DNA of 21,764 nucleotides, from the IMG/VR virus record IMGVR_UViG_3300025010_000245, positions 1-21,764 of that record, one strand, 5' to 3'. Shown here piece after piece: positions 6,886 through 18,587 of this stretch. The stretch's first letter is position 1, and each line of letters opens with the position of its first letter. A model generated the notes under the pieces. The model was not told the origin of the DNA. It was given only the letters and a program-made list of their open reading frames with translations, and made no database searches. Source of the DNA: a virus. The position numbers and the translations under genes are program-made.

Positions 6886-7917
6886 TTATTCCGGCAATTT
6901 AATTTCGCCAGACGATATACGTTGTTTAAATTCTTCAAATTGTGATGGGGTGTTATTACCATGCCCATAGACTTTATGGTAAAGTACATGAACTGATTTT
7001 TTCATCACTGCGCCCAGCCCGTATTTATTGTGCAATTCGACTATTCGGAATAATACTTCTGTGCCGTATTTGCTGTAAGCGCTGGTATAATAATTTTCAT
7101 CGCTTATACCAAATTCTGCCATTGCCGCTTTAGCAATAGTTTCAAAAGATGTTATATGATGAACATCTATAGGTATACTCGATTCTCCTGTTATACAACA
7201 AGTATAATTTGCTGCTCGAAGAGATGCAATAGTCCAAGGATCGAGCCTAGCTCTTGCGGCAACCCATATTTTGCTTACTCCGCCCTTCCACGTTGAAGAT
7301 CCTTCTCCACGATTATTATATGCTCTTAAATCTATTCTGCATTGACGGCATGTTGGAAATTTTACAAAATCTCTAACCATTCGAAACGTTTCATGCCCAA
7401 GGGAACACTTGTAATGAATTTTGCTCGCACCAGTTTTATAGCCTTCGGGAAAAGAAACAAATTCTAAAGAATTATCAAGAAGCATTTTTAACAACTCTTT
7501 TTCTGGAAATCTGTTTACATAGAAGTTTTCAATCATACATTTTTTACAGCCAAAATCTCTTTTTAAATCGGCGTATGATAAAAAATTTATGTGTCCGCAA
7601 GGATATAATATATCTATCTTGTCTTTTGTAAGTACAGGAATCTTTGATAAAAATTTCAGGTTTTTAGATTCCATGTATTCTTGGGCTTTATCTATATCAA
7701 ATTTTTTTGGAGTTCTTTTTGGCAAAGGATTGCATATTAAACATCTAGCCATACTGTTTATAATATCTCTAGATGCACCTTTCCAAATATTGCCACAAAC
7801 AATACATTCTACTGTTACGTGATTTCGTATATTAGTAAACTCAATAATTCTAATAGTGCCGTCATAAAAGGAAGCAACTCTTCTTTCCGCTTCTTGCAAT
7901 GTAATTCTAGCAGACAT
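6886..7917 (-). CDS. Free-standing HNH homing endonuclease with three zinc-knuckle modules
   Basis: The protein is 343 residues. The C-terminal part, about 205-343, is an HNH nuclease: C240-C241 and TG before D251-V-H253-H254, then H310 and H314 in VHVLYHKVYGHGNNTPSQF, a typical ending of phage HNH homing enzymes. It would cut double-stranded DNA at a cognate site, probably in the endonuclease-free capsid region of related phages. The N-terminal 200 residues consist of three tandem modules (about 5-68, 73-136, 137-200) with zinc-ligand pairs C38/C41-C59/C62, C107/H109-C124/C127 and C171/H175-C190/C193, likely for DNA recognition. The gene lies between the capsid gene and the next head gene without breaking either. 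It has its own promoter and a structured leader that can hide its AGGAG site. Confidence 0.92.
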   Translation of the reverse strand: MSARITLQEAERRVASFYDGTIRIIEFTNIRNHVTVECIVCGNIWKGASRDIINSMARCLICNPLPKRTPKKFDIDKAQEYMESKNLKFLSKIPVLTKDKIDILYPCGHINFLSYADLKRDFGCKKCMIENFYVNRFPEKELLKMLLDNSLEFVSFPEGYKTGASKIHYKCSLGHETFRMVRDFVKFPTCRQCRIDLRAYNNRGEGSSTWKGGVSKIWVAARARLDPWTIASLRAANYTCCITGESSIPIDVHHITSFETIAKAAMAEFGISDENYYTSAYSKYGTEVLFRIVELHNKYGLGAVMKKSVHVLYHKVYGHGNNTPSQFEEFKQRISSGEIKLPE

Positions 7918-8025
7918 TAAAATCTCCTCACATATTATTAAATCTCACTATGATTTATGAGGCGGAAAGATATTAGTGAGGATATATCTTTTATCAGTAA
8001 ATTAGCAAGATTTACCTATCCGCCT
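7918..8025 (-). promoter_or_regulatory. Structured 5' leader of the HNH gene (anti-Shine-Dalgarno switch candidate)
   Basis: The predicted transcript starts at about 8025. P1 pairs 8019-8025 with 7960-7966 (7 bp). Inside it P2 pairs 8010-8015 with 7997-8002 (6 bp), and P3 pairs 7984-7990 with 7967-7973 (7 bp). The P3 loop 7974-7983 reads AUCCUCACUA in the RNA. It is complementary over 7 nt to UAGUGAG at 7944-7950 and over 7 nt to GUGAGGA at 7925-7931, which is the Shine-Dalgarno region of the gene. The two pairings exclude each other, so the loop can sequester the ribosome site or be held by the upstream decoy. The same plan is seen in the leader at 15518-15621. Confidence 0.7.
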
Positions 8026-14356: not shown

Positions 14357-15517
14357 TTAGAGGTTTAGTTCTTTTATAAGAATATTTTCAATATTATTAA
14401 AATCCCAGTAAGGAATTTCAATTAATTTTATTTTTTTGCTAAAACAGTAATCTTTTTTAATATCGTCTCTTCTTTTTTGCGCTTCAAATGCTTTCTCTCC
14501 GCCGAAATAATCAATGGCATAAAAATGTTGTTGCCCAGAATATTCCAAGCAAATATTATATTCTGTTAAATAAAAGTCAAAAGGAAGAAGTTTTTTGCAC
14601 TTACAATCTTTAAATTCATATTGATCAACATATTTTATTTTATGGTTTTCCAAACATTTTCTTATTTTTAACTCTCCTTTTGAGACTTTGCAGAAAGGAC
14701 ATCCCGATTTAGATTTTCCTGCTCGATGTCCGATTTTAGCTTCATAAGATTTTCCACATTTGGGACACAACCAGAAAACAGCAATCTTACTATTGGAACA
14801 TACCCTATAAGGGCTTATTGTGTTCTTACTCCAATCCCATTCCAAGAGCAAATCTGGATTTTCTTCACCTAAATTATGCCCATCAAAAATTAGTTTGTCT
14901 GACCTTTCTTTTCCCCTCTTTATATATGAGCAGTCGCGACATCTATTGCCTCTCTTAAACCTGTCAAAAACCATAAAATAATTCTTTTGACACATGTGGC
15001 AAAATATTTCTATTTTTTCTTTACATCCTAAACGTTCTTGTGAAATTAAAATATCTCCATCGCCATATAGTAAAATATAATTTCTTATATAGTCTAACGT
15101 AAATGTCTGTTCTATGCCCTGCTTTATATGAGAACATATTCCACACCGATACCCTCTCTTAAAATCAGAGAATCGCGATAAATATACATGATTATTTGGG
15201 CATATGGTTTTTAGCTTTTCGCTTACAGTTTTATATGTCTCAGAAATTAAAACATATCCCGCGTCTTCATAATATTGTTTAACTTCAGCATATGGAATTC
15301 TTAATCCTTTGCCGCGGTCTTTACTGGGGCAAAGATGGTGCCTATACCCTTTGATAAAGCTGTTCCAATCTATAGAATAAATATCATTACAGACACGACA
15401 TCTATATTCTAATTTAGTATTTGAGTTTTTATATACGGTGCTTATTAGCATCTCCCCGCTACCATTTTTCTCCACATAATCTCTAACCAAATCAATATTC
15501 CATTTTACGGCACACAT
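14357..15517 (-). CDS. Free-standing EDxHD (Vsr-like) homing endonuclease with zinc modules
   Basis: The protein is 386 residues. Residues about 280-386 are a Vsr-like nuclease of the EDxHD type (the I-Bth0305I group): G-E282, FD-F with D314, then E325 and the block EYSGQQHF with H331, followed by R-R-D351-D352-IKKDYC and a final strand IKLIEIPYW. It would nick or cut both strands at a homing site, probably in terminase or portal DNA of related phages. Residues 1-206 hold three tandem modules of about 62-66 residues with ligands C40/C43-C63 (the first knuckle of the second pair degenerate), C106/H110-C125/C128 and C173/C176-C193/C196. Residues about 215-277 resemble the treble-clef DUF4379 (LEWDWSKN, C251/C254, C273/C276). 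It has its own promoter and a switch-like leader. Terminase and portal frames on either side are intact, so it is inserted between genes. Confidence 0.9.
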   Translation of the reverse strand: MCAVKWNIDLVRDYVEKNGSGEMLISTVYKNSNTKLEYRCRVCNDIYSIDWNSFIKGYRHHLCPSKDRGKGLRIPYAEVKQYYEDAGYVLISETYKTVSEKLKTICPNNHVYLSRFSDFKRGYRCGICSHIKQGIEQTFTLDYIRNYILLYGDGDILISQERLGCKEKIEIFCHMCQKNYFMVFDRFKRGNRCRDCSYIKRGKERSDKLIFDGHNLGEENPDLLLEWDWSKNTISPYRVCSNSKIAVFWLCPKCGKSYEAKIGHRAGKSKSGCPFCKVSKGELKIRKCLENHKIKYVDQYEFKDCKCKKLLPFDFYLTEYNICLEYSGQQHFYAIDYFGGEKAFEAQKRRDDIKKDYCFSKKIKLIEIPYWDFNNIENILIKELNL

Positions 15518-15621
15518 TTTTATTCCTCCTAGTAATATTTGCTCCTATTGTTTAATACTAAGTAGAGAGATTGTCTGTTAGGAGTACAGATTTTCGGGAG
15601 CGACCCTATCTCTCTACTATT
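15518..15621 (-). promoter_or_regulatory. Structured 5' leader of the EDxHD gene (anti-Shine-Dalgarno switch candidate)
   Basis: The predicted transcript starts near 15621. P1 pairs 15608-15618 with 15561-15571 (11 bp, AGUAGAGAGAU/AUCUCUCUACU). Inside it P2 is a GGG/CCC mini-hairpin (15604-15606 with 15596-15598), and P3 pairs 15586-15590 with 15574-15578 (UCUGU/ACAGA). The P3 loop 15579-15585 reads ACUCCUA. Six bases of it, CUCCUA, are complementary to UAGGAG at 15542-15547 and equally to UAGGAG at 15526-15531, the Shine-Dalgarno sequence seven bases before the ATG. Architecture, order and length match the leader at 7918-8025, although the stems and loop have different sequences. Confidence 0.7.
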
Positions 15622-15627
15622 ACTACT

Positions 15628-15656
15628 ATATTACCATACTATTACAATTTTGTCAA
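15628..15656 (-). promoter_or_regulatory. Sigma-70/sigma-A type promoter of the EDxHD gene
   Basis: The -35 box TTGACA is at 15651-15656, three bases after the terminase stop codon, and the -10 box TAATAT at 15628-15633, with a 17-base spacer ending TATGG (extended -10 TGG). It has the same boxes, spacing and TGGTAATAT core as the promoter at 8032-8060. Confidence 0.8.
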
Positions 15657-15659
15657 GTG

Positions 15660-17489
15660 TTAAAATCCATAAGTCAACCCCATAACCGCCGTCCAGTCAT
15701 CTCCAGTGTCTTGCTCTTGCAGTAAATCCTGATCAAGCAAACTGGCAAAAAAGTTACCATAGGCTAAGCTACTGTATCGGTCTTTCCTTGCAGTAGATGT
15801 TGCGGTTTCTAATTTAATATTTCCTCCGATAATAGCCATTTCTAAGTTAATACATTCATTAACTAATAAATTAATTTGCACATAGGATTGTAGGAATGAT
15901 GCGCGAACTTCTGGATCTATTTTACTATCAACAAATTCTTTATTGTTTTTTAGCAGATAGGTTTCAGCGTCTGCATCTTTTACCAAGAAATCAACCATCT
16001 TCTTTTGTAATTTGTCTCGTAATTCAACAGCTATTTGCGAATTAAGTTTAGCATCTGCGCTAATCGGATATATAATAGGCAGTGCATTTAAAGCGCTGGT
16101 ATGATTCAGAAGTTCTTCATATTTTACATTATCCAATGACGGATGGCTCATACTGGTCATAGCAGGATATTCTTCGTTGCGCTCCGAATCCTTTGTTACC
16201 ATGCCCAGTTGTTCATAAACGGAAACGCCGATATTAGCAACATCGAGCACGATGAAGTCGGCCTCAAAATCCCACCATAATTGCTTTATGCGCAACCCCT
16301 GAGTCATACTGTTCTTGCCACTGAACGATTCCATATAGACAACCTCGCGTCGATATCCTTTGTGAGTGGGCAGAAGCCTGATACAACTGGAAACCGCCAG
16401 GTCATTTGCTTTACCGCCTCTACTGGCGATATCACAGGTCAAAATACGAATTTCGTCATCCTGTTTGGGAATCCCATAAAGATTTTTCTTGGGGTTGTGA
16501 TTGTAATTATCACTCCTCTGTGGATAAAACGCCTTTTCTATTTTTCTCGCTTTTTCAAACATGCTCAACTTAAAGTAGGCATTAGTACTTTCACCCCATG
16601 GAATATTATCATATTCTTCCAAAGCGGTGATTTCATCCATCTTGCTTTTTTCCCTCTTGATTTGAGCAGCGGTTTTAATATTGTGTAAAATAGACAAACT
16701 ATAATCCAGACATATTACGCCACACTTTTCACCCTTGAGCATCATTGACAAGTTCTTCTTGGTTTCGTCATACCACCATAATCCCTTATGGTAAGCAGAG
16801 GAAATAAATGCTTCTTTAGGCTCTTCTTTCAAAATTTCTATACCAGCATATTCTGGCAAATTTAAATAAGGAGCTTGACGAATATAAGAAAATGGTCTGA
16901 TAACGGCGTCGACTACAGCCTTATCAATTAACCGGAATTCTTCATATATGGTAAACGTTGAACGTCGACCACGGCTGCTATCTTTACTAGCCACAACTTT
17001 AATCACGCTACCGTTATGAAAATCAACTTGCCATTTATTCATATTAGTGGTGATATTACTAATCTCTCTAGCCAAGTTGGGATGATCGTTTGCCAGACTT
17101 GTAATCTTATCCGATACAATCAATCCCGCTTGTTCCTTGGTACTACTACAAACAACAATCTCAGATCGAGGATATAGAATAGCCTTTGCACATGCAAATA
17201 CAGCAAGTAACCAGGTTTTGCCATCGGCTCGGCTCGCTATGGCGACAAAAGAGTCGCTTACCGACATTAAATATATCCAGATTATCTGAAAGAAGTATAA
17301 CTTAATACCTAGGTAATGACTTACGAAAAAATGAATATTGCGACGATAAAGCGTACACCAGTCGATGATGTTATCAATTCTCTTCTCATCCATTTTCTGT
17401 GATGTTACAATTTCTTTCGGACGCTTAAACACATCTTGATTATTGGCGTTTTTTATTCTATCATTTTGAAAATTCTTATGCGAAGGCAT
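15660..17489 (-). CDS. terL: Terminase large subunit (DNA-packaging ATPase and nuclease)
   Basis: The 609-residue protein packages phage DNA: its N-terminal ATPase drives translocation through the portal and its C-terminal nuclease cuts the concatemer. Walker A is S86-R-A-D-G-K91-T92, the arginine-containing variant of terminases. The Walker B region is FTIYEEF at 179-185 with E183/E184, where Tyr182 replaces the usual Asp. The coupling motif is SSAY at 230-233. The RNase H-like nuclease has D353 (ILTCDIASRGG), D416 (DFIVLDVAN) and D570 (RKDRYSSLAYG), the three metal-binding acids. Length is normal. The ATG overlaps the TAA stop of the small subunit gene as TAATG, so they are coupled. The gene is followed by the promoter of the endonuclease gene. 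Confidence 0.97.
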   Translation of the reverse strand: MPSHKNFQNDRIKNANNQDVFKRPKEIVTSQKMDEKRIDNIIDWCTLYRRNIHFFVSHYLGIKLYFFQIIWIYLMSVSDSFVAIASRADGKTWLLAVFACAKAILYPRSEIVVCSSTKEQAGLIVSDKITSLANDHPNLAREISNITTNMNKWQVDFHNGSVIKVVASKDSSRGRRSTFTIYEEFRLIDKAVVDAVIRPFSYIRQAPYLNLPEYAGIEILKEEPKEAFISSAYHKGLWWYDETKKNLSMMLKGEKCGVICLDYSLSILHNIKTAAQIKREKSKMDEITALEEYDNIPWGESTNAYFKLSMFEKARKIEKAFYPQRSDNYNHNPKKNLYGIPKQDDEIRILTCDIASRGGKANDLAVSSCIRLLPTHKGYRREVVYMESFSGKNSMTQGLRIKQLWWDFEADFIVLDVANIGVSVYEQLGMVTKDSERNEEYPAMTSMSHPSLDNVKYEELLNHTSALNALPIIYPISADAKLNSQIAVELRDKLQKKMVDFLVKDADAETYLLKNNKEFVDSKIDPEVRASFLQSYVQINLLVNECINLEMAIIGGNIKLETATSTARKDRYSSLAYGNFFASLLDQDLLQEQDTGDDWTAVMGLTYGF

Positions 17490-18513: not shown

Positions 18514-18587
18514 AGCTCCAAAGAGGAATTGAACCCCTGACATCCTCATTACAGGTGAGGCGCTCTACCAACATGAGCTATTGGAGC
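18514..18587 (-). tRNA. tRNA-Thr (anticodon UGU)
   Basis: A 74-nt cloverleaf reads on the minus strand. The acceptor GCTCCAA/TTGGAGC is a perfect 7 bp, the D stem is GCTC/GAGC with GG in the loop, and the anticodon stem CCTCA/TGAGG encloses the loop CCTGTAA. The variable loop has 5 nt, and the T arm AGGGG/CCTCT has the loop TTCAATT. Positions 34-36 are TGT, so threonine (ACA codons). Two oddities are C at position 33, where nearly all tRNAs have U, and U at discriminator position 73. No CCA is encoded. The stems are intact, so it is not simply decayed. It sits between the surface-protein genes and the terminase genes, right after an 18-bp hairpin. Confidence 0.9.

Follow-up and report, generated by a model that had tools for sequence, protein, structure and literature searches.

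Translation of phage homing endonucleases is known to be restrained by RNA structure at the start of the gene, as described for T4 I-TevI, I-TevII/III, Aeh1 mobE and T4 segB (PMC3014915). Another well-described system is the C4 RNA of phage P1, which is processed by RNase P and acts in trans, with its b' loop occluding ribosome sites (PMC5320573). A third RNA, int-alpA (RF02996), is typed as an sRNA in Rfam and lies canonically between integrase and alpA genes; no function for it was found in a literature search. Finally, HEARO and the IscB omega RNA are also found near endonuclease genes.

In this work, two leaders, A and B, were analyzed in a 21,764-nt stretch of viral DNA (IMG/VR record IMGVR_UViG_3300025010_000245, positions 1 to 21,764; hereafter the window), each preceding an endonuclease gene. 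Much like the T4 group, the ribosome site of a phage homing endonuclease gene would be sequestered by RNA; the T4 genes use local helices at the start site, whereas the leaders described here possess a separate upstream junction, with a loop and a decoy copy of its target. The original prediction set the leaders apart from HEARO, and Rfam searches agree, in that neither leader A nor leader B matched HEARO or omega RNA. Moreover, the leader core is small (about 50–65 nt) and complementary to its own mRNA, with no hint of a guide role. No description of such a leader before endonucleases was found in a literature search of incomplete coverage.

Two leaders and their downstream genes

Leader A occupies positions 15656-15518 on the minus strand and precedes endonuclease A (386 aa; 14357-15517, minus strand; ATG at 15517), with leader and gene lying directly between the genes for the terminase large subunit and the portal. 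Leader B (8060-7918, minus strand) follows the same plan and precedes endonuclease B (343 aa; 6886-7917, minus strand; ATG at 7917), behind a capsid-region gene. A tRNA gene (Rfam tRNA, 59 bits) also lies in the window, at 18514-18587 of the minus strand.

Endonuclease A combines zinc repeats and a DUF4379 treble clef with a C-terminal domain that resembles annotated phage homing endonucleases; based on a conserved motif and annotated relatives, this domain is probably a Vsr-like PD-(D/E)XK-type nuclease. Its protein matches include DUF4379 (3.3e-21), the HNH endonuclease phrog_559 (9.8e-67) and the homing endonuclease phrog_9084. Endonuclease B carries N-terminal zinc repeats, and its C-terminal part is an HNH-type region that resembles SPbeta YomD. 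The two proteins were originally taken to be unrelated, and this is true of their C-terminal nuclease parts, which differ; however, their N-terminal zinc repeats belong to one phage family (phrog_559/681; pairwise E 5e-4 over that part), and because this part is common to both, the endonucleases are not wholly unrelated.

The original prediction of identical promoter boxes before both genes was borne out, as the core TTGACA-N14-TGG-TAATAT occurs without a mismatch at 15656-15628 and at 8060-8032 on the minus strand, where 0.14 matches per window would be expected by chance even with up to two mismatches allowed. Promoter A, placed right behind the terminase stop codon, consists of a -35 box TTGACA (15656-15651) and a -10 box TAATAT (15633-15628) separated by a 17-base spacer with TGG at its end; in promoter B the boxes lie at 8060-8055 and 8037-8032. 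The promoter is not a constant part of the leader; among relatives, it was seen upstream in 13 of 29 and 9 of 42 cases, versus 21% of shuffles.

Both leaders also present their parts in the order that had been claimed, namely the helices P1, P2 and P3, a decoy target (T1), a target at the ribosome site (T2) and the start codon. In leader A, the three-way junction (15561-15618, minus strand) is formed by P1, AGTAGAGAGA/TCTCTCTACT at 15618-15609/15570-15561; J12, UAG at 15608-15606; P2, GG(G)/(C)CC at 15605-15604/15598-15597 or, as GGG/CCC, at 15606-15604/15598-15596; J23, GAAAA at 15595-15591; and P3, TCTGT/ACAGA at 15590-15586/15578-15574, with the loop ACUCCUA at 15585-15579. T1 (UAGGAG, 15542-15547) complements this loop with a stacking sum of -11.1 kcal/mol, and T2 (UAGGAGG, 15525-15531), which is the Shine-Dalgarno sequence of endonuclease A, complements the same loop, also at -11.1 kcal/mol.

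The junction of leader B (7960-8025, minus strand) consists of P1, AGGCGGA/TCCGCCT at 8025-8019/7966-7960; J12, UAG at 8018-8016; P2, GTAAAT/ATTTAC at 8015-8010/8002-7997; J23, UGAUAA at 7996-7991; and P3, AAGATAT/ATATCTT at 7990-7984/7973-7967, with the loop ATCCTCACTA (as RNA, AUCCUCACUA) at 7983-7974. Here, T1 (UAGUGAG, 7944-7950) pairs with the 3' part of the loop at -12.2 kcal/mol, and T2 (GUGAGGA, 7925-7931), which overlaps the Shine-Dalgarno sequence of endonuclease B, pairs with the 5' part at -14.4 kcal/mol.

Both junctions were read from the sequence and coincide with matches to R2, a covariance model described below. The core of leader A folds with a z-score of -2.83 and surpasses 197 of 200 shuffles in stability, three being as good. 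The energy of leader B is not unusual (z -0.7; more stable than 151 of 200 shuffles, with 49 as good), and folding energy by itself is weak evidence for the leader structure. With just two copies at hand and a weak folding energy for one of them, the loci might be read as mere strong promoters accompanied by chance hairpins and purine-rich Shine-Dalgarno look-alikes, and it is the relatives on other phages that speak against this reading.

Relatives on other phages and the int-alpA family

Viral contigs yielded about ninety loci that encode relatives of the endonucleases, and about two dozen distinct loci among them show the same leader plan. Since a MAFFT alignment of raw leaders left P1 and P3 unaligned, each seed was trimmed to fixed slots and padded with N, and 20 seed leaders were used to build a covariance model, R1, which was only partly trained on sequences from outside the window. 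In this alignment, which was hand-fitted to the structure, 96.6% of helix cells pair (92–100% per helix) and 15 of the 16 pairs are changed on both sides. Over 78 loci (520 kb), R1 gave 29 matches, and all but a few lie upstream of genes and in the same sense. On whole records, it found non-seed copies before GIY-YIG genes with NUMOD3 (two on one phage, best E 2.0e-6), before NUMOD4-HNH and Vsr-like genes and, weakly, before AP2-HNH genes and antirepressors. A hand-written descriptor scan recovered the correct sites, together with long-loop noise.

In a gene-blind search, two DNA patterns were run over 2.9 million viral contigs and yielded 99 loci, within which R1 gave 61 matches of up to 41 bits. 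A second model, R2, was built from 43 of these pattern-derived leaders only, all from other contigs and without any window sequence. Its alignment pairs at 94.9%, with both sides changed in 11 of 16 pairs and a covariation score of 0.65, compared with 0.15 for shuffled and no more than 0.10 for slid alignments. The patterns had been built from protein-derived leaders and fixed the junctions and three P1 pairs, so that the junction bases and the inner P1 pairs are not independent in R2; the positions independent of the patterns are P2, P3 and the outer P1. Within the window, R2 picks out only leader B (34.8 bits, E 5.8e-9) and leader A (15615-15564, 17.4 bits, E 0.0015), and R1 likewise finds these two alone, the score of leader A being low with either model (20 bits with R1). 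R2 also recovers 17 protein-derived leaders at E < 0.01.

Altogether, about 75 relatives on other phage contigs retain the three-way junction, with J12 as UAG and J23 GAAAA-like, and exhibit many compensatory changes. It had originally been argued that compensatory change between leaders A and B proves a selected RNA structure; two copies alone are no proof, but the relatives do show that the structure is selected.

A search with a single protein led to a MAG labelled as Bacteroidetes, one contig of which carries two leaders, both before endonucleases, and no leader was detected in 118 genomes of that MAG's phylum, under strict filters that also lost known positives. Likewise, no convincing copy was seen under stricter filters in eighteen cultured phages, most of them picked for their endonuclease genes, and three leader regions gave no match among cultured phage records.

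Model matches with covariation before phage endonuclease genes had been anticipated and were found, but the leader is not restricted to such genes. In the pattern set, it precedes GIY-YIG, HNH_3/NUMOD4, AP2-HNH, HNH repeat and DUF4379 endonucleases, as well as tail assembly chaperones (phrog_313, in three distinct phages), head-tail adaptors and an AntA antirepressor. Individual loci are as follows. Leaders before tail assembly chaperone genes (phrog_313) were observed at L168:2195-2249, L163:3928-3982, L161:10655-10712 and L153:667-720, in GC-rich and other phages. Leader-like matches lie closely upstream of head-tail adaptor genes at L243:7340-7399 and L154:3215-3272, with putative loop-target sites. 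Antirepressor-type genes follow the leader at L185:12565-12622 (AntA by Pfam), L045:4430-4481 and in L120, the last two judged from translation, in a context that resembles the C4-ant system of phage P1. In L084, L085 and L087, relatives of the endonucleases occur without this leader, apparently behind group I intron sequence.

Across the relatives, the junction bases (UAG, GAAAA/GAUAA) are nearly invariant and every helix varies. A three-way junction with a pseudoknot between loop and Shine-Dalgarno sequence is a common riboswitch layout, and it is conceivable that the conserved junction is an aptamer whose metabolite ligand picks loop-T1 or loop-T2 pairing. We consider this improbable, however, as the nucleases, tail chaperones, head-tail adaptors and antirepressors located downstream point to no metabolic pathway, and conserved junctions may serve folding only.

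Comparison at a single genomic site bears on another alternative. At the terminase-portal junction where leader A lies (window 14357-15662), four sister contigs (L287-L290) likewise carry an endonuclease, with homologous promoters. An endonuclease of one of at least three divergent types is present there in all five sister phages, among which no empty site was seen. Between leader A and the sister leaders, P2, P3, the loop, T1 and T2 all differ together; for example, the loop ACUCCUA occurs with UAGGAG and UAGGAGG in leader A, and UUUCCUGA occurs with UCAGGA and CAGGAG in a sister. Homing endonucleases such as I-TevI can be autorepressors (work cited in PMC3014915), and each endonuclease might by the same token bind its own leader, perhaps via its zinc repeats. 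Yet the leaders of L289 and L287 are almost identical from promoter to T1, with endonucleases only 26% identical; the leader is thus conserved apart from the protein, which argues against autoregulation by one nuclease. Its occurrence before proteins without a nuclease or zinc domain also argues against autoregulation, which we regard as very unlikely.

The original prediction recognized no named RNA family in the two leaders, and this part did not hold for the group as a whole. Leaders A and B gave no RF02996 match at E ≤ 10, nor did they in a whole-record search, and plain Rfam searches of A, B and L054 returned chance matches only; still, eleven related leaders score above the RF02996 gathering cut-off of 35.8 bits, six in records with HEG-type leaders and five from the pattern set. 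Because neither A nor B matches RF02996, both were filed as relatives that are joined to the family through R2, some of whose training leaders are RF02996-positive, and they are best read as divergent relatives of int-alpA, not as members. The int-alpA three-way junction, P1-UA(G)-P2-GAAAA-P3-CU-P1, is present in A and B too, and its CCUU-type P3 loop complements a conserved AgGG after P1, corresponding to T1; such complementarity of the P3 loop to a site shortly after P1 occurs in A, B and nearly all relatives. The canonical location differs, given that A and B precede phage endonucleases, and the Rfam model ends at T1, with T2 not described.

Canonical int-alpA copies from E. coli and Klebsiella, scoring 59–64 bits with RF02996, were found directly before an ORF with both T1 and T2 sites present; where annotated, the copies lie after an integrase-type gene or before alpA. 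R2 matches the canonical E. coli (E 9.8e-6) and K. variicola (E 0.0021) copies and leaves the other two unmatched. In the canonical copies (L291-L294), GTRACG overlaps or follows T2 before the start codon and is conserved outside the Rfam model.

One loop with two mutually exclusive target sites

The original prediction that the loop and both of its targets change together was confirmed in A and B and extends to the relatives. For each of 77 leaders, complements of the top of P3 were sought among the 75 nt downstream of P1. At the best site, pairing averaged -13.0 kcal/mol in the protein-derived set and -13.2 kcal/mol in the pattern set, versus -8.7 and -8.6 kcal/mol with partners swapped between leaders. 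A second, non-overlapping site paired at means of -11.1 and -10.9 kcal/mol, respectively, versus -6.7 kcal/mol when swapped, and none of 20,000 permutations reached the observed best-site or second-site pairing in either set. A few of the 77 site pairs, such as those of L243, L154, L186 and L232, are probably due to chance, being poor matches or situated past the start codon.

The positions of the two sites are regular. T1 begins a median of 10 nt after P1 (MAD 2), and T2 ends a median of 5 nt before the start codon, which follows T2 within 17 nt in 32 of 32 and 38 of 42 leaders. The sites are about equal in strength (T1/T2, -12.3/-11.8 and -11.9/-12.7 kcal/mol in the two sets), and the loop segments that pair with them overlap by at least 3 nt in 71 of 74 leaders. 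As both pairings use the same loop bases, they are mutually exclusive.

A loop that pairs with a Shine-Dalgarno sequence could conceivably be a simple mimic of the anti-Shine-Dalgarno sequence. In 24 leaders, however, the computed T2 lacks a Shine-Dalgarno-like core and still pairs with the loop, as with GAUUAGC, UUGUUGGA and CUCAGAAA, a few of these sites being doubtful (L243, L154, L232). Because such sites still match their loops, the pairing itself is selected, and mimicry is insufficient to explain it. Together, these non-Shine-Dalgarno targets, the cross-family model matches, the compensatory changes and the permutation tests refute the chance-hairpin reading at the sequence level, leaving it with next to no probability.

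Two further endonuclease leaders have other architectures. That of L011 (2230-2398) possesses a long P1, one hairpin and an unpaired CUCUACGUG with two downstream complements, CACGUAGAG and ACGUAGA, the latter beside the ribosome site. The leader of L064 (2800-2974) is a simple hairpin; its loop, ACUCCUAAC, has the complement GUUAGGAG(U) at two places, of which the second is the ribosome site.

Proposed translational control in cis or in trans

The reading that we prefer, at a probability of roughly 0.6, is that A and B are 5' leaders that control translation in cis through competing loop pairings. The closed three-way junction of P1, P2 and P3 would present the P3 loop, which could pair either with T1, the first site to emerge, or with T2 over the Shine-Dalgarno and start region. 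With the loop on T2, ribosomes could not start and the endonuclease would not be made; with the loop on T1, the start site would be free. We infer that T2 pairing represses and T1 pairing relieves, both in cis. The near-equal strength of T1 and T2 fits this scheme, because a two-state switch needs partners of about equal strength, and the near-fixed distance between P1 and T1 favors a cis pseudoknot. The balance might be tipped by a ligand that binds the conserved junction, by a protein, or by folding kinetics during transcription.

The main alternative is suggested by C4 of phage P1, which is the nearest working analogue. By this account, the junction domain would be excised and would act in trans, as an antisense RNA, on T1 and T2 of other mRNA copies, resulting in dose-dependent shut-off or in immunity between related phages. 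The layout of C4 is indeed alike: in P1, a three-stem RNA (RF01695) lies at the 5' end of the transcript before icd-ant, its P3 loop matches the b2 site before the icd start, and a second target, a2, follows right after P1. The leaders likewise possess a P3 loop that complements the region where translation of the downstream gene starts. The RNase P processing and ribosome-site occlusion known from C4 lend themselves to the analogy, the sRNA type of int-alpA in Rfam is compatible with it, two relatives precede antirepressor genes (AntA; L045) as C4 does, and the constant order of T1 before T2 would fit an antisense RNA in trans equally well. Nevertheless, C4 binds its two distinct targets through two distinct segments, a' and b', whereas the leaders have no separate a' segment and use one loop for two alternative target copies. 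Moreover, a purely trans mechanism has no need for the near-constant distance between P1 and T1. The C4 model, which scores 68.8 bits in P1 itself, left A and B unmatched at E ≤ 10 and found no match in five leader-carrying phage records, nor did R2 match P1. Based on these considerations, a C4-like antisense RNA is somewhat unlikely.

Returning to control in cis, the presence of the leader before so many kinds of genes suggests a translation switch that phages employ for mobile nucleases as well as for several further genes. It is tempting, if only tentatively, to go further and propose that int-alpA, together with its relatives, makes up a single phage-wide class of two-target leaders, which would gate endonucleases, tail chaperones, head-tail adaptors and antirepressors on a common infection signal, for instance the copy number of the genome or the dose of RNA; the loop-target pairs might then represent specificity groups, as in C4 immunity.

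For int-alpA, these results offer a concrete and cheaply testable mechanism, in which one loop would serve two exclusive targets, one of them at the ribosome site, and they widen its range to many phage contigs and gene families. The same RNA device appears to have moved among unrelated nucleases and virion genes, and it may be linked to the means by which phages avoid harm from the selfish homing endonucleases that they carry.
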